A DNA stretch of 46,641 nt from Methanobrevibacter sp. (GTDB lineage Archaea > Methanobacteriota > Methanobacteria > Methanobacteriales > Methanobacteriaceae), in assembly GCA_017459665.1 (NCBI GenBank), contig JAFUCN010000076.1, positions 1 to 46,641 on the forward strand. Reading direction: 5' to 3'. The position numbers and the translations under genes are program-made. The notes below the pieces were generated by a model. The model made no database searches. It saw only the letters and a list, made by a program, of their open reading frames with translations, and was not told the DNA's origin. Shown here piece by piece: positions 17,198-46,641 of the stretch. Position 1 is the stretch's first letter. Each line of letters starts with the position of its first letter.

Positions 17198-18238
17198 TCA
17201 TCCTTCTAATCTTTTAATATCCAAAATCATCTGATCAAAGTCTGATATGAAATTTTTATCTTGAGTAACTCTGAATTTTTCATATCTTTCTAAAACATGC
17301 TTTTTTGCTTCCTCAGCAGATATTTTACCTTTCCCAACCAATATGGGCATTCTTCTGAGTTTGATATAATCATCCAGTAATTCTTTCCAGTCTTTCATAC
17401 TCATCGGTATTTTTTCTTCTGCACGGGATTCAGCTAGATTTAAAAAACCTTCAACTAAACTATTTAATCTAGACAATTCCTTTTGATTTAGGTAATTTTT
17501 TGAAATAACAACATCACTTTGCAATATTTTGCCATTTGGTGATTTACTCCAGCTTGTTAATCCCATATGTGTTTTTTCAACATCACTGCGAGAGTCTATA
17601 ATCTCTGCTGCAGTTTGGTTACTTATTGCATATATTAGTTTGTTTTGAACTGTTGCGAAGAATTTTTGAGTAATTTCAGCATCTTTGTCATAATCATAAC
17701 TTGTTGCGTAAATGTCTGTAATTTTCTGATTGAATCTTCTTTCAGACGCTCTTATTTCTTGTATTATTTCAAGTAATTCATCAAAATAGTCTTCGGTGAA
17801 TCTTCCGCCTTTTTTAAGAAGTTCCTTATTAACTACAAATCCTTTTATCATATATTGTTTTAATATTTGATTTGCCCAACGACGAAAGTGGGTTGCCTCT
17901 TTACTGTTAATTCTGTAGCCTATTGATATCATTGCATCAAGATTATACCATTTTTGAGGCCTTCCACCTTTTTTAGAGTTTATCAACTCTGAGTTGATAA
18001 ACTCTGATTGGTCTTCAAATAATTTTTTAGAGGATATGCTAACTTCATTTTCATTTAATTCTTCATTTTCAATGATTTTTCTAAAATGTTTGGATATATT
18101 TTGAGAACTTGTTCCAAAAATCTCTGAAACTAATTTTTGACTTGCCCAAAGTGTTTCATCAGCAATCAAAAATTCTCCTTCAACATCTTGTTGTCTACCT
18201 TTATATAATAATTTCTCAATAAGTTTGAATTCTTGCAT
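17198..18238 (-). CDS. RhuM-family protein (virulence RhuM-like), function unknown
   Basis: This 346-residue protein matches the RhuM family named after a Salmonella SPI-3 gene. The N-terminal part has EGEFLIADETLWASQKLVSEIFG and VSEIFGTSSQNISKHFRKI, a helix-turn-helix-like segment. The GGRPQKWYNLDAMISIGYRI and HFRRWANQILKQYM motifs are also found in phage Bro/KilA-like proteins. The biochemical role is not known; such genes are scattered among bacteria and archaea and often mobile. A GAGGGGC ribosome binding site precedes the ATG. It lies between polC and nrdD, where I would not expect it, consistent with insertion. A 31-base perfect palindrome lies inside the coding region. Confidence 0.85.
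   Translation of the reverse strand: MQEFKLIEKLLYKGRQQDVEGEFLIADETLWASQKLVSEIFGTSSQNISKHFRKIIENEELNENEVSISSKKLFEDQSEFINSELINSKKGGRPQKWYNLDAMISIGYRINSKEATHFRRWANQILKQYMIKGFVVNKELLKKGGRFTEDYFDELLEIIQEIRASERRFNQKITDIYATSYDYDKDAEITQKFFATVQNKLIYAISNQTAAEIIDSRSDVEKTHMGLTSWSKSPNGKILQSDVVISKNYLNQKELSRLNSLVEGFLNLAESRAEEKIPMSMKDWKELLDDYIKLRRMPILVGKGKISAEEAKKHVLERYEKFRVTQDKNFISDFDQMILDIKRLEG
17975..18005. repeat. 31-base perfect palindrome inside the RhuM gene
   Basis: AGAGTTTATCAACTC (17975-17989), one central T, then its exact reverse complement GAGTTGATAAACTCT (17991-18005). In the protein it gives the near-repeat EFINS-ELINS at about residues 78-87. Fifteen paired bases would form a strong hairpin in the mRNA or a cruciform in DNA. 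Confidence 0.8.
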
Positions 18239-28092: not shown

Positions 28093-28962
28093 CTATTCCA
28101 TCGGTGTGAAGCCCTGTTTTCTGATGGCATTTTGGCCATCATTTAACAGATAATTAATCAATTCATCCACTTCAGGCTTATCCTCGTTTACTTTAACTAC
28201 GCTGATTACATGGCGGGTATCGAACTTCAGCAGTTCATTACCGTTGAAATAACTTGCATTTAAAAAGGTATGCAAGTTTTCAGAATTTCTAACAAGCTTA
28301 AAAGCATCAAATTGTGAATTTACAGTTTCTTTGATGTTATATTCAATATCGTAATGACTTAAACTGTTCCATGCAAGCCTCTGAGCAGATCCGTTGACAT
28401 TTACAAAGTCAAGTCCCTCCAAATCGGAAATGCTTTCTATCCGTTTTGAATTGGGACTTGATATCAAAACAAGATAATCGTAGGCAATAGGAATAAAGTT
28501 AATGTCCCTTTCAAAAGCGATTAAAGGGTCATCTAACGTAAGTATATCCACAACTCCTCTTTTTGCAAGCTCAAATGCATCTTCGTCGCTGCTGCTGTAG
28601 ATATTTATATTAAAATCAGTTGGAATACTTTCCAATAGTCCGGTGCTGATGTGTCCACCAACAATGTTAATGCTGTCTGTTTTTTCAATCTGAATTGCAT
28701 ATTTCCTAAACTCTTCAAGCAGTTTCAATCCTTCATCGGTAAGGAGAGTTCCGTTTCCAACTTTTCGGGTAATTTTTAAACCTAATTTTTCTTCTGCTTT
28801 CAGTAATCTTCTGTTGAATACAGTATGGGAAATATTTAATTCCTTTGCAGATTTTCTTTGAGATTTAGTTCTTGATAGGGACTCCAAGCTTTGATATAAC
28901 TTATAATCATAGATTTTGCCATCTATGTTCAAACTAATTAGCCCCTGACTATTAAGTTCCAT
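28093..28962 (-). CDS. One-component transcription regulator: LysR/ModE-type HTH plus binding-protein-like domain
   Basis: Residues about 15-85 form a winged helix of the LysR/ModE type (SQRKSAKELNISHTVFNRRLLKAEEKLGLKI, then TLLTDEGLKLL). Residues about 95-289 read as a periplasmic-binding-protein-like domain with no signal peptide (INIVGGHISTGLLESIP; LISSPNSKRIESISDLEGLDFVN; ending KQGFTPME), so a small ligand is probably sensed in the cytoplasm. The ATG at 28962 is preferred to TTG 28965. It is divergent from phosphohexuloisomerase and near fdhD and a metal-type ABC importer, so molybdate, tungstate or formate are ligands to test. That assignment is inference. Confidence 0.8.
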   Translation of the reverse strand: MELNSQGLISLNIDGKIYDYKLYQSLESLSRTKSQRKSAKELNISHTVFNRRLLKAEEKLGLKITRKVGNGTLLTDEGLKLLEEFRKYAIQIEKTDSINIVGGHISTGLLESIPTDFNINIYSSSDEDAFELAKRGVVDILTLDDPLIAFERDINFIPIAYDYLVLISSPNSKRIESISDLEGLDFVNVNGSAQRLAWNSLSHYDIEYNIKETVNSQFDAFKLVRNSENLHTFLNASYFNGNELLKFDTRHVISVVKVNEDKPEVDELINYLLNDGQNAIRKQGFTPME

Positions 28963-29019
28963 CAATTATATATAAAATTGTAATCATAATTAATAATATT
29001 GATTTTGGGATTGAATAAA
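28963..29019. promoter_or_regulatory. Overlapping divergent promoters (regulator / hxlB)
   Basis: Only 57 bases separate the two ATGs. ATTATATATAAAATTG at 28966-28981 is a TATA box that suits the plus-strand hxlB gene, with a start near 29000. An AT-rich block near 29000 would serve the minus-strand regulator. A protein bound here would affect both genes. Confidence 0.45.
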
Positions 29020-32752: not shown

Positions 32753-33546
32753 ACAACAAGCTATTTGAAGTTAGAAATATTTCATTTTCATATGATGATG
32801 AGGAAATATTTTCAGGTATCAGCTTTTCCATTGATAAGGGTGATGTATTATGTATTCTAGGTCCAAACGGGACTGGAAAAACCACACTGATAAAATGTCT
32901 CAATGGCCTGCATGATATAAGCTCCGGCGAGATTTTAATCAATGGCAAAAATATTAAAAAGTTATCTTTTAGAGAAATTTCAACCCATATAGGATATATT
33001 CCGCAGTCACATGTTCCATCATTTCCATTCAAGGTAATTGATGTGGTTGTCATGGGAAGGGCGCCATATCTTAACCTGACAGATTCTCCTAAAAAGGAAG
33101 ATATGGATATAGCGGTGAATGCTCTAAAAACTTTGGGAATCGAACATTTGCGAAATAAGGAATACACCAATCTAAGCGGTGGGGAAAGGCAGCTGGTATT
33201 TCTAGCAAGAATCTTGTGTCAGCAGCCGGATATCCTAATATTGGATGAGCCAACTTCACATTTGGACTTTGGAAATCAGATAAAACTTTTAGAGATTATT
33301 GATAATTTGGCGAAATCAGGTCTTTCAATTATAATGTCTTCACATTTTCCGGATCACGCATTTTTAAGCTCAAATAAGGTAGCCATAATGAAGAATAAAA
33401 GATTCATTGACTTTGGAACTCCTGATGATGTTGTAACAGAAAAGAACTTGAGAAATGCCTACTCAATCGAGGTTAAATTAATTGAACTTGATGATAAAAG
33501 AAAGGTATGTGTACCTTTAAAGACAAATTTAGAATTAGACTTATAG
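32743..33546 (+). CDS. ABC importer ATPase
   Basis: This 267-residue ATP-binding subunit has Walker A GPNGTGKTT (near residue 43), Q-loop GYIPQSHVPSFPF, signature LSGGERQ, Walker B ILILDEPTSHLD and a switch histidine in SSHFPDHA. It belongs to the FepC/BtuD class that pairs with FecCD permeases, and so powers the importer encoded immediately upstream. The fmdE ATG follows the stop by eight bases. Confidence 0.95.
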   Translation: MVIDNKLFEVRNISFSYDDEEIFSGISFSIDKGDVLCILGPNGTGKTTLIKCLNGLHDISSGEILINGKNIKKLSFREISTHIGYIPQSHVPSFPFKVIDVVVMGRAPYLNLTDSPKKEDMDIAVNALKTLGIEHLRNKEYTNLSGGERQLVFLARILCQQPDILILDEPTSHLDFGNQIKLLEIIDNLAKSGLSIIMSSHFPDHAFLSSNKVAIMKNKRFIDFGTPDDVVTEKNLRNAYSIEVKLIELDDKRKVCVPLKTNLELDL

Positions 33547-33554
33547 GTGATAAT

Positions 33555-34124
33555 ATGAATGAACAAGACTACGATGAACAATTAACTAAAGCAGCTAATT
33601 TTCATGGACATGTTTGTGGCGGAATTGCCATTGGAACTAAATTGGCAATGTATGGGCTTGAATTGCTTGGAATGCCTTTAAATGAAAGGCATAAAAATCT
33701 TATAGTATTTTTAGAAATCGACAGATGCATGTCTGATGCGGTTCAGTCTGTTACAGGTTGTTCTATGGGTAAAAGAACATTAAAACAGATGTATTACGGT
33801 AAATTTGCAGCTACATTTTACAATCAGGACACTGGTGAGGCATTAAGAATAACCGATGCTGATGCAAATAAAAAGTTCAAGGATGAGGAGACTAAAGAAG
33901 AGATGATTGCACGTTTCAGACGCACACCTCCCGAAGAATTATTCAAGGTTGATAAAGTTAAAATTGAATTGGGACCTGGAGACATGCCGGGCAAACCTTA
34001 TACCACAACATTCTGTTCAGTTTGTGGTGAGAAAGTATCTGATGGCCGTCATGTGCTAATGGGTGGAAAACCTGTTTGCATATCCTGTGCTGAAGGTTCC
34101 TACTACGAATTAATTGAAGATTAA
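33555..34124 (+). CDS. FmdE-family protein
   Basis: ATG 33555 is chosen because a perfect GGTGATAAT precedes it; an earlier in-frame start would lie inside the ATPase gene. The 189 residues comprise the FmdE domain (NFHGHVCGGIAIGTKLAMYG, then FLEIDRCMSDAVQSVTGCSMGKRTL) and a TraR/DksA-like C-terminal zinc finger (CSVCGEKV...CISC). FmdE genes accompany molybdenum formylmethanofuran dehydrogenase and also ABC metal importers. The conserved His-Cys motifs suggest metal or cofactor handling. The precise activity is unknown. It ends the importer operon. Confidence 0.87.
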   Translation: MNEQDYDEQLTKAANFHGHVCGGIAIGTKLAMYGLELLGMPLNERHKNLIVFLEIDRCMSDAVQSVTGCSMGKRTLKQMYYGKFAATFYNQDTGEALRITDADANKKFKDEETKEEMIARFRRTPPEELFKVDKVKIELGPGDMPGKPYTTTFCSVCGEKVSDGRHVLMGGKPVCISCAEGSYYELIED

Positions 34125-36421: not shown

Positions 36422-37225
36422 ATGAGTTCATTCAAAAGTCCAGTTGACACCGCAAAAGCTATTGCGGCAACAGCTGGTGCAAAAAATTCAGCAAATATCA
36501 TCAATGTAATCTTGCTTTCATTTTTAGCAGGTGCTTACATTGCATTTGGTGGATTATTAGCTGAAGTAGCTAGTGCAGGTATGATAGGTGCAGGTGCACC
36601 TCTCGGTTTAGAAAAATTCGTATTTGGTGCAGTGTTCCCTGTAGGTTTGATTATTGTTGTTCTCGCAGGATCTGAATTATTCACTGGTAACGTCATGTTC
36701 ATGACCTTAGGTGTTTTAGACGGTAAAGCTTCCGTTGGAGGCCTCGCTAAAAACTGGGTATTAAGTTGGGTTTTCAACTTCGTTGGTGCTTTATTCGTAG
36801 CATACGTTCTTGCTTTCATGGGAGGAATTATGCCTACCGATGCAAGTGCTCCAGCATATGCAATTACTGAAAAAGCTATTGGTGTTGCAACCGCTAAAGT
36901 TGGTATGACCTTTGAAGTAGCAATGATTAGAGGTATCGGATGTAACTGGTTAGTATGTTTAGCTGTATGGTTAGCTAACGCATCTGACGACATCATCGGT
37001 AAAATCTTTGGTATTTGGTTCCCAATCATGGCGTTTGTATGTATTGGATTTGAGCACAGTGTAGCAAACATGTTCTTCATACCATTAGGTATGTTCTTAG
37101 GTGCTGAAGGTGTAAACTGGGGTACTATTATCATTAACAATTTAATTCCAGTAACCATCGGTAACATTATTGGAGGAGCAATATTTGTTGCATGTATCTA
37201 CTGGTTCACTTATCTTAAAGAATAG
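36422..37225 (+). CDS. fdhC: Formate transporter (FNT family)
   Basis: FdhC brings formate into the cell as a growth substrate. The 267-residue protein has six membrane spans with FNT-family features: [16 protein letters not shown] near residue 34, the [20 protein letters not shown] loop, and [15 protein letters not shown] near 176. It precedes fdhA by 84 bases, which contain a stem-loop that may reduce read-through, so the transporter mRNA could be more abundant than the enzyme mRNA. Confidence 0.95.
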
Positions 37226-37246
37226 ACTAGTAAACTTTAAATTATT

Positions 37247-37279
37247 AGAAGCTTTTTAAAGCTTCTTCTAATTATCTTT
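37247..37279 (+). terminator. Stem-loop between fdhC and fdhA
   Basis: AGAAGCTTT (37247-37255) and AAAGCTTCT (37258-37266) are perfect nine-base arms around two bases, beginning 22 bases past the fdhC stop. The following T-run is short (TATCTTTTA), which suits partial termination or 3'-end protection. Confidence 0.5.
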
Positions 37280-37309
37280 TATAATATAAAATATTTTGGA
37301 GATTATAAA

Positions 37310-39475
37310 ATGGTTGAAATTAAATATGTTCCAACAATTTGTCCATACTGTGGTACTGGATGTGGACTTAACTTCGTTGTAAAAGACGGTAAGATTGTTG
37401 GTGTAGAACCTTTAAAAAGACACCCTGTAAACGAGGGTAAAGTATGTCCAAAAGGTAACTTTGGATATCAGTTTATTAATAGGGAAGACAGATTAACTAC
37501 TCCTTTAATAAAAGAAAACGGTGAATTTAGAGAAGCTTCTTGGGATGAAGCACTTGATATGGTTGCTAAAAAACTCAAAGAAGTATCTGACGAAGATCCA
37601 AACAAAGTTGGATTCTACGCATGTGCTCGTTCACCAAACGAAAACATTTACATTACTCAGAAATTAGCAAGAGTAGCTTGTCAAACTCAAAACGTAGACC
37701 ACTGTGCACGTATCTGTCACGGACCTACTGTAGCAGGTTTGGCTAACACTTTCGGTTCCGGTGCTATGACCAACGGATTCGACAGTATTAAAGAAGCAGA
37801 CTACATTTTCTGTATTGGTTCCAACAACATGGAAGCACACCCATTGTTTGGTCGTAAATTGATTCAAGCTAAACAAAACGGTGCTAAATTAGTTGTATTA
37901 GACCCAAGATTCACTCCTACTGCTAAAATCGCAGACGAATATGTTCAATTTGAAACCGGTACTGACGTAGCTTTAATGAACGCTATGATTAAAGTCATCA
38001 TCGACAAAGACTTACAAGATGATGAGTTTATTAAAAACAGAACCAAAGGTTACGAAGAAATGAAAGAAACCGTTCAAAAATACACTTTAGAAATGGCTTC
38101 TGAAATTACTGGTATTAAACCTGAAGTTATTGAACACTTAGCTGTAGAATATGCATCTGCAGATAAAGCAGCTATCGTATACTCATTAGGTATTACTGAA
38201 CACTCTCACGGTGCAGACAACGTTATGTCCACTGCAAACTTAGCAATGTTGACCGGTAACATTGGTAGACAAGGAACAGGAGTAAACCCATTAAGAGGAC
38301 AAAACAACGTACAAGGTGCTTGTGATATGGGTGCATTACCTTCTGATTACGTAGGATACAGAAAAGTTAAAGATCCAGAAACTACTGCATGGTTCAACGA
38401 TTACTACAGTGGATACGGATACGAAGTAAACTTACCAACCACTCCTGGTTTAACATTAGTTGAAATGATGAACGCTGCTCACGCTGGTGACTTAAAAGTA
38501 TTATACATCCACGGTGAAGACCCTGTACTTTCCGATGCAGATGTACAACACACAAAAGAAGCACTTGCTAACTTAGAAATGTTAGTTGTTCAAGAATGTT
38601 TCTTAACCGATACCGCACAATGTGCTGATGTAGTATTACCTGCAGCAGGTTGGGGTGAACAAGAAGGTACTTTCACAAGCGGTGAAAGAAGAGTACAATG
38701 CTTACACAAAGCACAAGAACCACCTGAAGGCGCATGGTTAGATTGGAAAATCATGGAAGAAATCGCAGTTAGAATGGGAGTTCCAAGAGAATTATTCCAC
38801 TACGAAACTTCTGAAGACATTTTCAATGAAATCAGAGAATGTGCTCCAATCATGGCTGGTATGAACCGTGAAAGATTAGACACTCCAGAAGCACTCCACT
38901 GGCCTTGCCCATCTGAAGATGACCCATGTCAACCATTAATGCACAAAGAAAAATTCGCACACCCTGATGGTTTAGGTGTCTTCCAAGCATTAGAACACAA
39001 AGGACCAGTTGAAACTGTAGATGAAGAATACCCATTATTATTAACCACTACAAGAGTATTGTTCCACTATCACGCAGCAATGACCAGAAGATGTGAAACC
39101 TTATCCAATGAGGTAAAAACTGGATTTATTGAAATCAACACTAAAGATGCTGAAGCAAGAGGAATTCTCAACGGTGAAGTAGTAAAAGCATTCTCTAGAA
39201 GAGGAGAAATCGCAATCCCTGCTCGTGTAACTGATGACATCAGAGAAGGTATTGTAAACATTCCAATGCACTTTGTAGAATGTGCAGCTAATGTATTAAC
39301 CAACTCCGATTCTTTCGACCCTAAATCTAAAATGGTTGAATTAAAAGCTTGTGCTATTCAAGTAGAAAAACTCCCTGAAAAATTAGAAATGAGAGGAGAA
39401 GTCTACAAAGATGGTACTGACACCGAAATCAAAGCTGAAAACATGTCAACTACTACCGTAAAAGTAGGAAAATAA
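37310..39475 (+). CDS. fdhA: Formate dehydrogenase alpha subunit (Mo/W-bis-MGD)
   Basis: FdhA oxidises formate to CO2 at a Mo- or W-pterin centre and passes electrons to FdhB. Residues 9-56 bind one [4Fe-4S] cluster (CPYCGTGC, then CPKGNFG). The active site [17 protein letters not shown] places Cys136 where E. coli FdhF has selenocysteine, so this is a cysteine enzyme. The dinucleotide-binding domains follow, with [26 protein letters not shown] and a C-terminal barrel. The 721-residue length is normal. The codons are richer in C than those of its surroundings, typical of a highly expressed gene. GGAG at 37298 is the ribosome binding site. Confidence 0.97.
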
Positions 39476-39492
39476 ATGAGGAGTAGATTTAA

Positions 39493-40698
39493 ATGAGCGC
39501 AAAAATTAACGATATGTACTACGCATACTCTGCTATTGATGATATCAAAGAAAAAGGAGAGTACGGTGGAGTAGTAACTACTATCATGAAATACTTATTA
39601 GAAGAAGGTATCGTTGACGGTGTTGTAGGTGTAACTCAAGGTCACGATATTTATGATGGTGTTCCAACCCTTGTAACTAATCCTGCTGATGTAATTAAAA
39701 CTGCAGGTTCCATTCACTGTGGTACTTTAAACATTGCTAAATTTGTATCCAAATACTTAGATGGTGCAAGAGACATGAAACTCGCTGTTGCTTGTAAACC
39801 ATGTGATGCAATGACCATCAGAGAATTAATGAAAAAAGGAAAAATCATCGAAGATAACGTAATTATGATTGGTGTTAACTGTGGTGGAACCATGTCACCT
39901 GTTCCTACCATGAACATGATTAGAGATGTATACGAACTCGATCCTAAAGACGTTATCAAAGAAGAAATCGCTAAAGGAAAACTCATCATGGAAACCGCTG
40001 AAGGGGAAAAAGGTTTCAAAATTGATGAATTAGAAGAACAAGGTATGGGTAGAAGAGAAAACTGTCAAAGATGTAATCTCAAAATCCCATCCAACGCTGA
40101 CTTAGCTTTAGGTAACTGGGGAGTTATCGGCGAATTAGCAGGTAAAGCTACTTTTGTTGAAGTATTCTCAGATAAAGGTGCTGAAGTTTTAGACAAAGTT
40201 ATTGAAGCTGGTTTAATTGAAACTGCAGAACCTATTGAAAAAGGTATCAAAATCAGAGAAAACATCAACAACTTCATGCTTAAAGAATCCCAAGCTAAGA
40301 AAGATGTTGATTACGCAGGCACTACTGGAGACATCATCGATGTATTCTACCAATACGAAGACGAATTCTCCAAATGTATGAAATGTTACGGTTGTCGTGA
40401 AGCATGTCCATTATGTTTCTGTGAAGACTGCTGTCTAGAAGCTGAAGGTCCTGAATGGGTACCTGGTGGATACACTCCTGCTGCTCCATTTTTCCACTTA
40501 ACACGTATGGTGCACATGGTTGACGCATGTACTAACTGTGGTCAATGTACTGAAGTATGTCCATGTGAAATTCCTGTAGCTAAAGTATGGAGTACTGTAA
40601 ACAACAAAGTAAGAGAAATCTACGGATACATCCCTGGTATGGGTAGTGATGATCCACTTCCATTCACAGATCATGTATCCAAAGCTAAATGGTTATAA
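39493..40698 (+). CDS. fdhB: Formate dehydrogenase beta subunit (F420-reducing)
   Basis: FdhB takes electrons from FdhA through iron-sulfur clusters and flavin and reduces coenzyme F420. The 401 residues contain the FrhB-like F420/FAD domain (VVTTIMKYLLEEGIVDGVVGV, then VACKPCDAMTIREL) and a C-terminal ferredoxin part with CMKCYGCREACPLCFCEDCC and CTNCGQCTEVCPC. It is co-transcribed with fdhA: the gap is 17 bases and holds a GAGGAG site. An intrinsic-type stem-loop ends the operon. Confidence 0.96.
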   Translation: MSAKINDMYYAYSAIDDIKEKGEYGGVVTTIMKYLLEEGIVDGVVGVTQGHDIYDGVPTLVTNPADVIKTAGSIHCGTLNIAKFVSKYLDGARDMKLAVACKPCDAMTIRELMKKGKIIEDNVIMIGVNCGGTMSPVPTMNMIRDVYELDPKDVIKEEIAKGKLIMETAEGEKGFKIDELEEQGMGRRENCQRCNLKIPSNADLALGNWGVIGELAGKATFVEVFSDKGAEVLDKVIEAGLIETAEPIEKGIKIRENINNFMLKESQAKKDVDYAGTTGDIIDVFYQYEDEFSKCMKCYGCREACPLCFCEDCCLEAEGPEWVPGGYTPAAPFFHLTRMVHMVDACTNCGQCTEVCPCEIPVAKVWSTVNNKVREIYGYIPGMGSDDPLPFTDHVSKAKWL

Positions 40699-40738
40699 TT
40701 GGGAGTTTTTCCCTATTATACACCTTTTCTTTTTTTTG
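40695..40738 (+). terminator. fdhB terminator: stem-loop over the stop codon and T8
   Basis: ATAATTGGGA (40695-40704) pairs with TCCCTATTAT (40710-40719) with one mismatch around five bases. The TAA at 40696-40698 is in the arm. ACACCTTTTCTTTTTTTT follows, giving a strong terminator. Confidence 0.7.
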
Positions 40739-40760
40739 AGTTTTGAAAATAACGTTGTTA

Positions 40761-40782
40761 TATATTTTTTCAAAAAAATATA
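40761..40782 (-). terminator. A/T stem-loop after moaA
   Basis: TATATTTTTT (40761-40770) and AAAAAATATA (40773-40782) are perfect ten-base arms, five bases beyond the moaA stop on the minus strand. There, the second half supplies the T-run. It is all A/T, so thermally weak. Confidence 0.4.
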
Positions 40783-40786
40783 GAAA

Positions 40787-41716
40787 TTAGGTGTTGAATG
40801 GTTCACGTCTGTTGATACCATTTACAAAAATTTCTTCTAGTTCTTCTTCACTTTCACCATTTCGGACATGTGAAATCAGTTCCACCAGATTATCGTTTCT
40901 AAGTAGGCAAGGTTTGATTTTTCCGTCAGGTGTTATCCTCAATCTGGAGCAATTTGCGCAAAAGGTACTGTTATCTACAGGTCTTACTATCTCGATTTCT
41001 CCACCGTCTATGTAATATTTTTTACGTCCCTGCATAAACTTACGTTCATGTACCTCATCAGCTATATCAGTTAACCTTTCTTCAATCATGTCTAACTTAT
41101 AATGATATTCAGCACTGAATTTGTCATCATCACAGTTTTCACTTTCAATGAGTTCAATCAGCTGAAGCACCATATTGTTCTCTTTACAGAAGTTGAACAT
41201 GTCCTTTACTTCATTCTGATTGATGTCCTTCATGATAACCATGTTGATTTTAACCGGATACATTCCAACCTCAACAGCTTTTAGGATTCCTGCCTTTGCA
41301 GATTCCAAATAATCCTTGTTGGTAATGTATTCATACGTTTCACGATTTAAGGTATCCAAACTTACATTTACACGATTTAAGCCAGCATCCTTTAGGTCTT
41401 GAGCATATTGTTCAAGATAAGTCCCATTTGTGGTCATTGAGATGTCCTTAAAGCCTAAACTAGCTATTTTTTCAACGACTTCGACAATGTCCTTCCTTAT
41501 TAAAGGTTCTCCGCCTGAAAGCCTAATCTTTTGAACACCGATGTTTTTTGCAACTTTGCAGATGGTGTATAGTTCATCAGCTGTCATTTCCTGTTTGGAT
41601 GAAACCATTCCATCATGATGACAGTATAGGCAGTTAACGTTACATCTGTTTGTTAATGTGATTCTAAGTGAAATGATTGGTCTTTGGTATTGGTCTTTGA
41701 TAAATTCGCCTGCCAT
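40787..41716 (-). CDS. moaA: GTP 3',8-cyclase, molybdopterin synthesis
   Basis: MoaA starts pterin cofactor synthesis by radical rearrangement of GTP. The radical-SAM cluster motif [12 protein letters not shown] is near residue 25, and the second, substrate-binding cluster motif [20 protein letters not shown] lies near residue 253. 309 residues is typical of the archaeal form, which lacks the bacterial C-terminal GG. It starts four bases after the mobB stop, so the two cofactor genes form one minus-strand unit whose promoter has an operator shared with the fwd operon. Confidence 0.94.
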
Positions 41717-41720
41717 ATTA

Positions 41721-42758
41721 TCAATCTTCCACAGTAATGCTTATTTTATTAATTTCTTCATCAACTTCTAAGGAACTAATAATTGCAAATATTGTCTCTT
41801 TTAAAATCCCTCTTGTAAACTTATTAATCTTCACGTCATGATTGTTGGTTTTGAGGGTGATTTGTGCATTCTCTAACTCTTCCCTAATTATATTTGCAAT
41901 TTCAACATCTATCCTTTTTACATTATTTTCAGTTTTAATGGATTTAATCATTCCTTTTATGGAACTTGAAACAATGTTTGTTGTAAATTCATTTATCTCA
42001 AGATTTTTATCATTGATTAGGATTTTGCATTTGCTGTTAATTTGTTCCTGTTTGGTGTTTTCATTTGGAATAACCACTTCAATTTTACCTATTTTTTCAA
42101 CGTCATACTCTTTGAGGTTTAATGTCTTTATGACGCCGATTAAACTTTGTTTTAGATAATCACTTACGAATCTGTTGAGGCCAACTACATGGCCGTCAAT
42201 TGACATATAACTATGGGTTTCATCCAAATCATTAGTCGTCAGGTTTCCGTCACGTATCTCTTTTGCAATGGCTTCACCATTGTTGAAACCGCAGTTGTTT
42301 GCAAATAATGTATCAACAATGTCGTGACCCCTCTCTTCTATCAAATCGGCAAGTTCGCGGACACCTTTTTCATCTATTGTAAATGAATTGACTTCTTTTA
42401 TTGTATATTCGTCTCTGACTTCAGGGGATGTAATTATTTTCGGATAGTTGTAGCTTTTATAGCCTTCGATGATTACAAAGTCAAATTCATCAAAGTGTTT
42501 CAATAGATACAATATCCTGTTTAGGTCATGTTCCTTTCTTGCGTTAAAAAAAGTGGTTGATCCAACACCAACAACCAGATTCGCTCCGGCTTGTTTGTGT
42601 TTCCAGGTATCAGTGTTTTCCTTATCCATTTCTATGGAATGGTGTGAATGTTTAATTGAAGCTACATTATATCCTCTTTTTGTCAGCTCTTCAATAACTT
42701 TCACAGTCAGTGATGTCTTTCCAGTATTTTTTTTACCTACAATAGATGCAATTTTCAT
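41721..42758 (-). CDS. mobB: MobB-type GTP-binding protein with three tandem C-terminal repeats
   Basis: Residues 1-160 are MobB, which aids guanine-dinucleotide attachment to molybdopterin. The P-loop is [10 protein letters not shown], followed by [21 protein letters not shown] and [14 protein letters not shown]. The remaining part is not found in bacterial MobB. It holds three related units at about 185-231, 246-287 and 302-344, each with a short strand, N-x-F, a long helix ending near GxIK[ST], and a closing strand (KIEVVI, RIDVEI, KISITV). Their function is unknown; they may bind pterin or a partner enzyme. Total length is 345 residues against about 170 for E. coli MobB. The start follows GGGGATTG. 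Confidence 0.88.
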
Positions 42759-42818
42759 GTCTCAATCCCCTTGATTAATTATATGTTTTTAGTAATAATT
42801 AATGATTTCTAAATAATG

Positions 42819-42837
42819 ATGTGTAGTTACTACACAT
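42819..42837. promoter_or_regulatory. Operator O1 in the mobB-moaA promoter
   Basis: ATGTGTAGT-T-ACTACACAT is a perfect 19-base palindrome 61 bases upstream of the mobB ATG. It shares seven of nine bases in each half with O2 or eight of nine with O3 in the fwd promoter. AT-rich TATA candidates for the minus strand lie just downstream (42790-42815). Confidence 0.65.
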
Positions 42838-43074
42838 TTTTTTGGAAGACCTAAAAATTTAGCAAATTTTGCTTATTTTTCGTCATTTTTTAATAATTTT
42901 TTATATTTTTTTATTACTATTTTTTAGGAAAAAGCCGATATAAACAAAAATAAATATCGATAAGTAATATTAAAAATACTATTAAAGAGCAATTATTAGT
43001 TATTAAATTTATTTAATAAATATAAGTTTGTTTTATTCGAAAATATTTAATTTATATCTTTTTCAAAAAATTTT
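42838..43074. other. AT-rich spacer between divergent units
   Basis: No gene is seen here. The region has short palindromes, AGCAAA-T-TTTGCT at 42861-42873 and CGATAT...ATATCG at 42936-42959, and several poly-T runs. They may be part of the control region shared by mobB and the fwd operon, or chance in sequence this rich in A and T. Confidence 0.4.
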
Positions 43075-43171
43075 TTGTGTAGTATTCACACAGTAATATA
43101 TAAGTCTTGTGTCTTGAGTCTAGTAGGCAAATATATTTATATAAGTAAACATATGTGTAATCATTACACAT
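43075..43171 (+). promoter_or_regulatory. fwd operon promoter with operators O2 and O3
   Basis: O3, ATGTGTAAT-C-ATTACACAT (43153-43171), is a perfect palindrome directly ahead of the coding start. O2, TTGTGTAGTATTCACACAG (43075-43093), is an imperfect copy whose left half TGTGTAGT equals O1. TATA candidates are TAATATATAA (43094-43103), touching O2, and AAATATATTTATATAAG (43129-43145), which would start transcription at about O3. A protein on O3 would block initiation, suggesting autoregulation by the HTH protein. Confidence 0.65.
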
Positions 43172-43181
43172 GGTGGTTCAA

Positions 43182-43634
43182 ATGCCAAAACATATTGCAT
43201 CTGGTTTGAAATATTTGGCTGCGGTCAAGTTGAAAGATGCTGGTGAAAGTCACCAGGCAATTGCTAATGAGTTGGGTGTTGACAGGTCTACCATATCACA
43301 TTATTTGAATGGTAGCAACTTATCTTGGAACTCTATTGACGTTGCAAGAACAATCACTGAGCTAACTCCTAGGGATTTCTTGGTAATGGCTGAAGCAGTA
43401 TTCGATGAACCAGAACAGAGTCGAAAAATTGTGAATATTTGCAGAGAAAGAGATTTCGAAGTAACTATAGCGGATTCTTGTATTGGTTGCGGCTTATGTG
43501 TAAATGCATGTTCAATGAAAGCTATTAAGTTAGAATCATTAAAGGCACATGCAGACTCCAGACAATGTTGCGGTTGTCAGCTTTGTGAAGATGAATGCCC
43601 AACTAATTCTATAAAAATTTTGGAGATTGAATGA
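43182..43634 (+). CDS. HTH DNA-binding domain fused to a 2[4Fe-4S] ferredoxin (possible FwdH-position regulator)
   Basis: ATG 43182 is preferred to ATG 43170, which lies within operator O3, because GGTGGTTCAA stands before it; this gives 150 residues. Residues about 5-45 form an HTH (AVKLKDAGESHQAIANELGV, then DRSTISHYLNG). The C-terminal half binds two clusters: Cys100, 103, 106 and 110, and Cys129, 132, 135 and 139, with an extra Cys130. A DNA-binding head with two low-potential clusters suggests sensing of redox state, iron or metal supply. As first gene of the fwd operon it occupies the place of FwdH in Methanothermobacter and may be that subunit; a dual role is possible. The next gene overlaps its stop (ATGA). 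Confidence 0.85.
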   Translation: MPKHIASGLKYLAAVKLKDAGESHQAIANELGVDRSTISHYLNGSNLSWNSIDVARTITELTPRDFLVMAEAVFDEPEQSRKIVNICRERDFEVTIADSCIGCGLCVNACSMKAIKLESLKAHADSRQCCGCQLCEDECPTNSIKILEIE

Positions 43635-44731
43635 TGATTAGAAATTTAAAAGAGGTTAACGACAATAACTTTGACATTACAAGGTCAGCTGAAGAAGTCA
43701 GAAACTTGTCTTTCAATGACCAAGTTTGTTTAGGTTGTGGAATTTGTGAATCCACTTGTCCTGTTGAAGCAATTACATTGAATGCAATTGCTGTGGATGC
43801 TCGTCACAGACTTTCTAACGACATCTATTTCAGTGGACACGAAAAGATTGCTCAAAACTTCCATGATGACTTTGATGTTCAAAGAGTAAGCATTGACGAA
43901 AGTAAATGTGTATTATGTGGTATGTGCAGTGGTTTATGTCCTGTTGATGCATTAGTATTGACTATCGATGACATACCAATAAGAGAAATCGAAGCATATC
44001 CTCACTACAACGCTTTCTCAGAAATTGACGATGATGAATGTATCTACTGTAAAAGATGTGAAGTTGCATGTCCTCGTGATGCAATTGTCATAGAAAGAGT
44101 TTTACCAAGTCGTGCAGACTTAGTAACTGGTGAAATTGAAGTAAATGAAGATGATTGTATTTACTGTGGAGTATGTCAAGAATTATGTCCTGCAGAAGCT
44201 ATAGTTGTTGATAACGAAACTGGAAAAGAATCTATTGTAATCGATACAGAAAAATGTGTATACTGTCTCGTATGTAAAAAATCTTGTCCTACCAACGCTA
44301 TCAAAGCACTTTGTAGAGCTTGTTCTTACGGAGAATACGACTTAGACCCAGCTAAAGCTGTTGTAACTGGAAACTCAATTATTGACCCAGAACTTTGCGT
44401 ATACTGTGGCTGGTGTGAAGGCGTATGTCCTACTGACGCAGCAAAACACAAAAAACCATTTGAAGGTAGTATTGAAGTAGATCAAGAAAAATGTCAAGCT
44501 TGTGGAGCTTGTGTCGATATTTGTAGTTGTAATGCATTAGCATTCCCAGTATCATCTGGTCCTGGTTCCAGAATGGAACATGTCATTGCTAACAATGATT
44601 ACTGTGTAAAATGTAAAGCATGTGCAAAAGCATGTCCTAATGGTGCAATTACAGTTAAAAGAACAGAAATTGACCACACTCCAATTCAATCAGCAACTTG
44701 GAATGAAGCTTTAGACGCTATTAAAGACTAG
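43631..44731 (+). CDS. fwdF: Polyferredoxin of formylmethanofuran dehydrogenase
   Basis: FwdF wires electrons into the formylmethanofuran dehydrogenase complex, the first step of CO2 reduction. The 366 residues contain eight CxxCxxCxxxC motifs, beginning CLGCGICESTCP and ending CVKCKACAKACP, enough for eight [4Fe-4S] clusters. The seventh reads CQACGACVDICSC, with Ser in place of the usual Pro. It overlaps the upstream HTH-ferredoxin gene and is followed by fwdG at eight bases. Confidence 0.93.
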   Translation: MMIRNLKEVNDNNFDITRSAEEVRNLSFNDQVCLGCGICESTCPVEAITLNAIAVDARHRLSNDIYFSGHEKIAQNFHDDFDVQRVSIDESKCVLCGMCSGLCPVDALVLTIDDIPIREIEAYPHYNAFSEIDDDECIYCKRCEVACPRDAIVIERVLPSRADLVTGEIEVNEDDCIYCGVCQELCPAEAIVVDNETGKESIVIDTEKCVYCLVCKKSCPTNAIKALCRACSYGEYDLDPAKAVVTGNSIIDPELCVYCGWCEGVCPTDAAKHKKPFEGSIEVDQEKCQACGACVDICSCNALAFPVSSGPGSRMEHVIANNDYCVKCKACAKACPNGAITVKRTEIDHTPIQSATWNEALDAIKD

Positions 44732-44739
44732 GTGATTAT

Positions 44740-44970
44740 ATGGAACTTAAAGTTAATCAAGATAATTGTTTAGGTTGCGGGATTTGTGTAATCGCTTGTC
44801 CTGTTAACGCATCTATCAGTCCGGAAAATGCTGGTGGTAATGGTGCAAAGACTGAAGAAGTAATTATGATGGTAGAAAACGGTTTTATTAAACTTTTCTC
44901 ACCTGAAAAATGTGAATTGTGTGGAACATGTCAAATGTTTTGCCCAGTAAATGCTATATGGTTAGAATAG
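44740..44970 (+). CDS. fwdG: Small 2[4Fe-4S] ferredoxin subunit
   Basis: The 76-residue protein has two cluster motifs, CLGCGICVIACPVN and CELCGTCQMFCPVN, separated by a longer loop (about 22-52). It links the polyferredoxin to the catalytic subunits of formylmethanofuran dehydrogenase. GGTGAT stands directly ahead of the ATG. The size and place in the fwdFGD order match the tungsten enzyme of Methanobacteriales. Confidence 0.92.
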   Translation: MELKVNQDNCLGCGICVIACPVNASISPENAGGNGAKTEEVIMMVENGFIKLFSPEKCELCGTCQMFCPVNAIWLE

Positions 44971-44982
44971 GGGGTAAAATTT

Positions 44983-45552
44983 ATGCATTATGCTAATACT
45001 TATTTAGAAAAACCTGTAGTACCTGATGTAAAAATTACTGGTGAAGGAACAACTAAAGTACTCAAATGTATGTTAAACACAGGATCTGACATCTATCAAG
45101 GTGCATGTAAGAAAAGAGGATCCACCTTAAAACAAGAGTACAAAAACGCTTCTGGTACCTGTTACATGGACCCTAGGGACATGGCAAAATTAGGTGTAAA
45201 CAACTGGGATACTGTACTTGTAAAAACCGATTTCGGTGAAGTAGTTGTAAACTGTGCAGTTTCAAGAGATGCACCTCACGAAGGAACAGTATTCATTTGT
45301 AAAGGTCCATGGGCTAACACTATTGTAAGCCACGACACTTACTGTTGTTCTGACCCTACTTACAAAGGTATTCGTTGTACTGTAGAAAAAACTGATAGAA
45401 AAGTATTACTCATGGCTGACTTAATGAGATGGGTATACAAAAAATACGTTGATGAAGAAGATGACGATGTTGTTGAAAACATGGAATCTTTAGGTGAAAG
45501 ACCTGTTTATCACGGACGTAAATGGGAGGAGTTGATTGACCATGACTTATGA
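44983..45552 (+). CDS. fwdD: Formylmethanofuran dehydrogenase subunit D
   Basis: FwdD is the molybdopterin-dinucleotide-binding barrel that completes the active site with FwdB. Typical phrases are [19 protein letters not shown] near residue 28, [21 protein letters not shown] and [24 protein letters not shown]. At 189 residues it is longer than the roughly 130 residues I know for Methanothermobacter; the extra part is an acidic tail ([18 protein letters not shown]). Its stop overlaps fwdB by eleven bases, so the two are translationally coupled. GGGGGT precedes the ATG. Confidence 0.93.
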
Positions 45553-46641
45553 GCCACCTATAACTGATTACGATTACATTGTTGAAAACTGTACCTGTGC
45601 ATTCTGTGGTTGTAACTGTGACGATTTAGACTACTTAGTTAAAGATAATCACGTTGTTGCAGTAAGACACGCATGCAGATTCGGTGCAAGTAAAATTATG
45701 GAAGATATGGATCAAAGATTAATTGTTCCAATGATTAGGGATGAAAACGGAGAACTTATGGAAGTAGATTGGGATACTGCTTTAGACAAAGCTGCTGAAT
45801 ATATTGCTAATTCCATCAGACCAGTATTCTACGGATGGTCTGAAACTTCTACTGAATGTATGAAAGAAGGTGTAGCATTAGGTGAATACATCGGTGCTGT
45901 ATTAGATAACCAAGCTACTATCTGTCACGGTCCTTCTCTCCAAGCTGTACAAAACGCAGGTTACCCTATTCAAACTTTAGGGGAAGTTCAAAACAGAGCG
46001 GACATGGTTGTTTACTCTGGAAGTAACGCAATGAACTCTCACCCAAGACACATGGCAAGATACGCTGTATTCTGTCGTGGATACTTCAGACAAAGAGGAA
46101 GATTCGACAGAACTGTTGTTACTATGGATCCAAAATTCTCCGATACTGCAAAATGTTCAGACAAATGGATTGGATTCGAACAAAACGGAGACTACGGTTT
46201 CTACAATGCTATTAGAGCAGTTCTCAGAGGAAAAGAATTATACCAAGATGTAATTTCTGGAATTCCTAAAGAAGATATTTATGAATTAGCAGAAGAAATG
46301 AAAAGCGCTGAATTCGGTGTTCTCTTCTTCGGTTTAGGTTTAACCCACACTTTATCAAAACAAAGAAACATTGATATTGCAATTAAAATGGTACAAGACT
46401 TAAACAAATACAGTAAATGGGGTCTTACTCCAATGAGGGGTCACTTTAACGTAAACGGATTCAACATTTTCATGGCATTCGAATGTGGATTTGCTTTCGG
46501 TGTTGACTACTGTAGAGGTTACCCAAGATATATGTTAGGTGAAACCAACACTATCGATTTATTAGTCAGAAAAGAACCAGATTGTTTCATGGTTATTGCA
46601 GCTGACCCTGGTGCTCACTTCCCTAACGGAGCAAACCAACA
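45542..46641 (+). CDS. fwdB: Formylmethanofuran dehydrogenase subunit B, 3'-truncated by the window
   Basis: FwdB is the pterin-W/Mo subunit that reduces CO2 to formate, which is then joined to methanofuran by FwdA. The frame is open from ATG 45542 to the window edge (366 codons). The N-terminal [4Fe-4S] site reads [12 protein letters not shown], and the metal ligand is Cys128 in [15 protein letters not shown]; cysteine rather than selenocysteine is typical of the tungsten form. Later motifs include [14 protein letters not shown] and [14 protein letters not shown]. Codons are C-enriched, as in fdhA, consistent with strong expression. The rest of the operon (normally fwdA and fwdC) is expected beyond the edge. 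Confidence 0.93.

Follow-up and report, generated by a model that had tools for sequence, protein, structure and literature searches.

Formylmethanofuran dehydrogenase (Fwd) performs the first and energetically hardest step of the route from CO2 to methane, and Methanobacteria are the main methanogens of the rumen and gut; to our knowledge few regulons have been described in this class, where the control of Fwd and HdrA is largely obscure. The 46,641-bp stretch of Methanobrevibacter DNA analysed here (the window) raises the question of whether fwdH, the first gene of its fwd operon, encodes a subunit of the enzyme or a regulator of it. An earlier note on this DNA had proposed an autoregulated iron-sulfur HTH protein, and from the sequence this remains the best reading. 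fwdH (43182-43634, + strand, with an open frame from 43170) is followed on the same strand by fwdF (43631-44731, the polyferredoxin subunit and second gene of the operon; NCBIfam NF042909, 430.6 bits), fwdG (44740-44970, a 2[4Fe-4S] ferredoxin subunit assigned by operon order), fwdD (44983-45552, assigned by the conserved order fwdH-F-G-D-B) and fwdB (45542-46641, the catalytic Mo/W subunit, truncated by the window end, for which orthologues were found). The order fwdH-F-G-D(-B) was seen in the window and at 20 loci of other genera. Divergent from fwdH, on the - strand, lies mobB (41721-42758; Pfam PF03205, 106 bits; TIGR00176, 120 bits), followed downstream by moaA (40787-41716) as a conserved pair, and positions 36422-46641 form a Mo/W-enzyme island in which a formate transporter, fdhA, fdhB, moaA, mobB and fwd stand side by side.

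Two perfect 19-bp palindromes with one consensus, reported in the earlier note, were read directly from the window and are present: O1 (ATGTGTAGT-T-ACTACACAT, in full ATGTGTAGTTACTACACAT; 42819-42837), which lies in the mobB promoter 61 bp upstream of the gene and is also a putative distal fwdH operator (-362), and O3 (ATGTGTAAT-C-ATTACACAT, in full ATGTGTAATCATTACACAT; 43153-43171), which lies between the second of two TATA-like boxes and the fwdH ribosome site. The third, imperfect copy was likewise found at its place (O2, TTGTGTAGTATTCACACAG; 43075-43093), with a TATA-like box directly downstream and with a core that is a perfect palindrome in several relatives. No strand is assigned to any of the three, and their putative operator core is TGTGTA-N5-TACACA, with half-sites one helical turn apart. 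AT-rich intergenic DNA readily yields palindromes, with 0.43 perfect 9+1+9 palindromes expected in the window from its base composition (33.9% GC), and the sites could in principle be functionless relics or chance inverted repeats; three such palindromes were observed, two of which (O1 and O3) have one common consensus. The third of these (TATCAACTCTGAGTTGATA, 17981-17999) bears no relation to the operators and falls inside a gene of the RhuM family (17198-18238). Pattern searches of the whole 1.82-Mb draft genome (81% complete) returned O1 and O3 as the sole matches with up to two mismatches, and five places with up to three.

The sites proved strongly conserved at orthologous promoters and not scattered over genomes. 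In 102 non-redundant fwdH upstream regions, drawn from genomes that are related and hence not independent of each other, 237 sites scoring at least 11/14 were observed against 6.45 expected from shuffled sequence, with positions peaking at -27/-28, -105/-106 and about -352 of fwdH; O3 stands at -28, O2 at -106 and O1 near -350. On the same related genomes, O2 (scoring at least 11/14) was retained most often (82/101 regions), with O3 found in 69/101 and O1 in 68/95; among control windows of the same DNA, a site was present in 0.14% of those 9 positions wide and in 1.4% of those 70 positions wide. The O2-O3 spacing of 77-78 bp is constant from Methanobrevibacter to Methanothermobacter-type genomes, which carry ATGTGTGATTAACACACAT at the place of O3, and in 28 same-genus genomes O1 forms an island of 17/19 invariant columns within poorly alignable AT-rich DNA. 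Every exact core match was at the fwd locus in 25 genomes of other genera, and for two neighbouring families, represented by 11 genomes, every one was at fwdH. O3 varies in form, being reduced to a half-site (ATTTTATATCATTACACAT) in some genomes and missing its left arm in many, and one genus is without a good O3. Tandem operators 24 bp apart were observed at -387/-411 of fwdH in genus g23, with O3 weak or missing (L079 6791-6833, L081 6782-6824, L277). Outside hdrA, treated below, off-locus sites were rejected as targets, being single occurrences or inside reading frames; the recurrent ones of group g29, which are intergenic and beside a small heat-shock-like or TPR-like gene, were rejected too, as was the recurrent one of Methanothermobacter-type genomes, which is inside a coding frame. 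With positions fixed class-wide while the flanks diverge, and with the motif nearly absent elsewhere in genomes, the likelihood that these are chance or relic repeats is negligible.

That the first gene after O3 encodes an HTH fused to two [4Fe-4S] sites was borne out by Pfam, by two CX2CX2CX3C motifs and by a structural model. The product is 150-154 residues long, with probable translation from 43182 rather than 43170, as judged by a ribosome site, GGTGG, at 43172. The ferredoxin (Fer4) match exceeded the curated Pfam cut-offs, and HTH domains scored slightly below theirs. Counting residues from 43170, the HTH helices occupy residues 28-47 (43251-43310, + strand; recognition helix DRSTISHYLNG) and the ferredoxin domain residues 95-154 (43452-43631, + strand; ligands C104/107/110/114 and C133/136/139/143), and R39, S40, T41, S43, H44, Y45 and all eight cysteines are invariant in 39 sequences sampled class-wide. 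An AlphaFold2 model built with these 39 sequences (mean pLDDT 92.6) has a six-helix N-terminal domain with the HTH (helices at 28-35 and 39-47) and a C-terminal ferredoxin-like domain; a first model from 24 sequences had a poor ferredoxin half (mean pLDDT 65.7). Foldseek matched the C-terminal half to ferredoxins and gave, with the first model, weak XRE/lambda-repressor-like HTH matches (E of at least 0.6). FwdH was found in 112/152 genomes of the phylum set, covering the three families that make up the order and the only further family in the class, as a single-copy gene save in two metagenome assemblies, and two peptide patterns searched against genomes of 84,980 species matched almost only Methanobacteria. 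Same-genus genomes in which FwdH seems to be missing have just a distant polyferredoxin in place of fwdF as well, so an assembly gap is the likely cause of the apparent absence.

The earlier note had also allowed that the protein might be a structural subunit, and this found no support in solved structures: the PDB holds no match to the HTH half of FwdH, whereas FwdF of solved Fwd complexes was matched (chains 5t5i_F and 9sw6_H), by Fe-S motifs only. Beyond its ferredoxin motifs FwdH has no matching chain in those complexes, and the structural reading is disfavoured. A DNA-binding HTH, conserved cluster ligands and a conserved palindromic operator together suggest that FwdH likely works like an Fe-S cluster transcription factor.

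The arrangement of O1 points to two uses for one site. With a directly divergent mobB, the distance of the single O1 is about 60 bp to that gene and about 352 bp to fwdH. Four genomes have mobB about 190 bp farther away and carry a pair of copies, the first 60 bp from mobB and the second at -353 of fwdH. A pair, about 110 bp from mobB and at -353 to -362 of fwdH, is likewise present when an extra polyferredoxin gene separates mobB from fwdH. Genera without an adjacent divergent mobB often keep the distal site at -349 to -365, or have it paired at -387/-411. Because two copies exist where mobB has moved away, O1 is read as dual-purpose, a putative mobB site and a distal element of fwdH itself. 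The link between molybdopterin and fwd genes drawn in the earlier note thus stands for Methanobrevibacter together with near relatives; outside this group, fwdH alone appears to be served by the sites. The extra gene of some Methanobrevibacter genomes, with operator copies on its flanks, encodes a FwdF-like polyferredoxin 37-39% identical to FwdF (L085 7021-8019, L086 6879-7874, L097 7517-8512). A second conserved element, CGATATAAA-N9-YATATYG, was seen between O1 and O2 (42936-42959 in the window). About 10 genomes of the genus have it at -246 of fwdH, and a different genus has it at -326 to -329; it may represent an additional promoter or be bound by some other regulator.

Within Methanobrevibacter a further target, overlooked when only fwd and mobB-moaA were proposed, was found at hdrA. 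Off-locus sites with two mismatches in four genomes were located in the hdrA promoter, and of 31 hdrA promoters in the genus, 28 have a site that differs from the core at no more than two positions. It stands at -116 to -121 or at -73 to -75, and the window's own genome is among those that have it (GTGTGTTCTTACTACATAT, locus L135). Relaxing the core gave about 17 off-locus matches in the genus, eight of them at hdrA, compared to three same-genus matches in all for a reversed control pattern. The hdrA site is imperfect, with core mismatches, and lies downstream of a TATA-like box; a comparable hdrA site was not evident in most other genera. HdrA hands bifurcated low-potential electrons to Fwd, which makes the target list functionally coherent, and the Methanobrevibacter regulon likely consists of fwd, mobB-moaA and hdrA.

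The direction of control was considered from the layout of the fwdH promoter. Two TATA-like boxes sit between O2 and O3 on the + strand: box 1 (TAATATATAAG, 43094-43104), which abuts O2 and is conserved class-wide in the ungapped alignment, and box 2 (TATATTTATATAAG, 43132-43145), upstream of O3 and conserved in the same alignment. As there are two, the placing of O3 on the transcription start is uncertain; use of box 2 would put O3 at the predicted start site, as the earlier note had it, and use of box 1 would put it at about +40. Repression by FwdH of its own operon is favoured, with somewhat better than even confidence, because a TATA-like box shortly precedes both O3 and the hdrA site. The position of O2 on the upstream side of box 1 is compatible with activation or repression, and FwdH might instead be an activator that recruits basal factors from O2, with O3 or O1 tuning the response. 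O2 is the site kept most widely and is followed at once by a TATA-like box, and one genus with a weak O3 has retained O2 and a doubled O1, as an activator would allow; protein bound at O3 or at the hdrA site would however block the promoter, and we regard activation as rather unlikely. Another account makes O3 an RNA hairpin in the fwdH leader by the ribosome site and not a DNA operator. O3, alone of the sites, could form such a stem immediately ahead of GGTGG (-9.4 kcal/mol for the window's own sequence), and it would be transcribed if box 1 is used, but the motif occurs also at O1, O2, hdrA and in tandem pairs far from start codons, the left arm of O3 is gone in many genomes, the fold is not conserved, and Rfam gave no family at threshold. 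A hairpin role is very improbable.

As to which protein binds them, FwdH is not the only HTH regulator linked to the locus. A LysR/ModE-like protein (28093-28965) is the nearest other candidate, and if it were the binder FwdH would be only an accessory Fe-S enzyme subunit. Its gene was present in 29/29 class genomes tested, often within tens of kb of fwd, and in the window several Mo/W-related genes lie between it and fwd. Close to it were also observed fdhD, an ABC transporter with a Peripla_BP_2 protein, and an FmdE-domain protein (33507-34124). The test case is a group of Methanosphaera-like genomes (g26, the genus being inferred from gene content), in which fwdG-D-B-A are kept, with FwdB 57-60% identical, and FwdH and FwdF, both present in most of the class, are both missing (seven genomes, L349-L355). 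No operator was found in 8-9 kb around fwd in these seven genomes, and genome-wide there was one weak match among the five genomes tested, at the level of the control pattern. FwdH is favoured as binder because genomes lacking it also lack the sites while the LysR/ModE-like gene stays, the joint loss of FwdF meaning that FwdH is not the sole variable. The LysR/ModE-like gene persists, near fwd, in these genomes where the sites are missing, a phylogenetic pattern that does not fit it as binder; moreover an HTH whose recognition helix is invariant is part of FwdH itself, for which the solved chains of Fwd complexes offer no match. We rate binding by this or another factor as improbable, and consider it highly probable that FwdH itself binds the palindromes. 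A proposed base-residue covariation (operator TGTGTG with D38N) was rejected, as M. curvatus has N38 yet TGTGTA-type sites, and the recognition helix of FwdH is too invariant for binder and site to be matched in this way.

Taken together, we propose that FwdH is probably an Fe-S DNA-binding regulator of fwd, of mobB-moaA and, in Methanobrevibacter, also of hdrA, acting via the 19-bp palindrome. FwdH would bind this palindrome, probably as a dimer, at O2 and O3 on either side of the TATA-like boxes in front of fwdH, and at O1, which would serve mobB and, from a distance, fwdH. Bound FwdH would repress fwdHFGDB, mobB-moaA and, in Methanobrevibacter, hdrA. The ferredoxin domain may be the sensor: the sites would be released when the two [4Fe-4S] clusters within it change in integrity or in reduction state, so that Fwd, the cofactor genes and the electron donor HdrA would rise together as low-potential electrons or the supply of Fe-S demanded. 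Given its ferredoxin domain, the natural signal for FwdH is redox state or Fe-S integrity, and we lean slightly towards its sensing one of these; of the signals named in the earlier note, tungstate found no support and redox or Fe-S status is the more plausible. More tentatively, and with less than even confidence, the bacterial-type 2[4Fe-4S] ferredoxin sensor might equilibrate with the low-potential electron pool shared by FwdF and HdrA, feedback from this electron supply setting the level of the CO2-fixing Fwd-Hdr machinery, with a long-range operator pair (about 325 bp) as part of the arrangement.

In Bacteria, IscR, FNR, NsrR and SoxR combine an HTH with cluster ligands and palindromic operators to control redox or Fe-S genes. 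FwdH differs from them in having a bacterial-type 2[4Fe-4S] ferredoxin domain as its putative sensor and falls outside their families by Pfam, with no Rrf2/IscR, FNR/CRP or MerR/SoxR domain among its best 25 Pfam families. Nor does it have the make-up of ModE/TunR-type proteins (a LysR-like HTH with an oxyanion-binding domain), carrying a ferredoxin domain instead. MsvR responds to redox through cysteines, and its family and targets are other than those of FwdH. It is described as a redox-responsive regulator of methanogens (PMC3729527). An fwd promoter is bound in Methanosaeta harundinacea by FilR1 (PMC3991700), which is a two-component response regulator from another archaeal order than FwdH. 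The Methanothermobacter protein Tfx (Hochheimer 1999, cited in PMC3087415) is an HTH protein encoded beside a formylmethanofuran dehydrogenase operon and binding its DNA; there the operon is the molybdenum fmd operon, Tfx transcription is repressed by tungstate and binding is downstream of the promoter. FwdH has no Tfx domain match, neither the Tfx HTH nor its C-terminal domain being among its best 25 Pfam families.

FwdH itself appears in a table as a member of the tungsten operon fwdHFGDACB of Methanothermobacter (PMC3087415), where it is the same gene, first in the operon, and is assigned no regulatory role; orthologues were found in all families of the class that were searched. A survey of metagenome genomes also names this gene, and a figure annotation in earlier literature gives the same domain architecture in words, likened here to FwdH by its description, without operator or target. 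No earlier description of a FwdH operator or regulon was found in the literature searched, outside which lies much older methanogen work; the architecture has been annotated before, and the operator and regulon appear new. The analysis yields for Methanobacteria a named candidate regulator, a precise putative operator and a short target list, and suggests that FwdH be reclassified from enzyme subunit to regulator.
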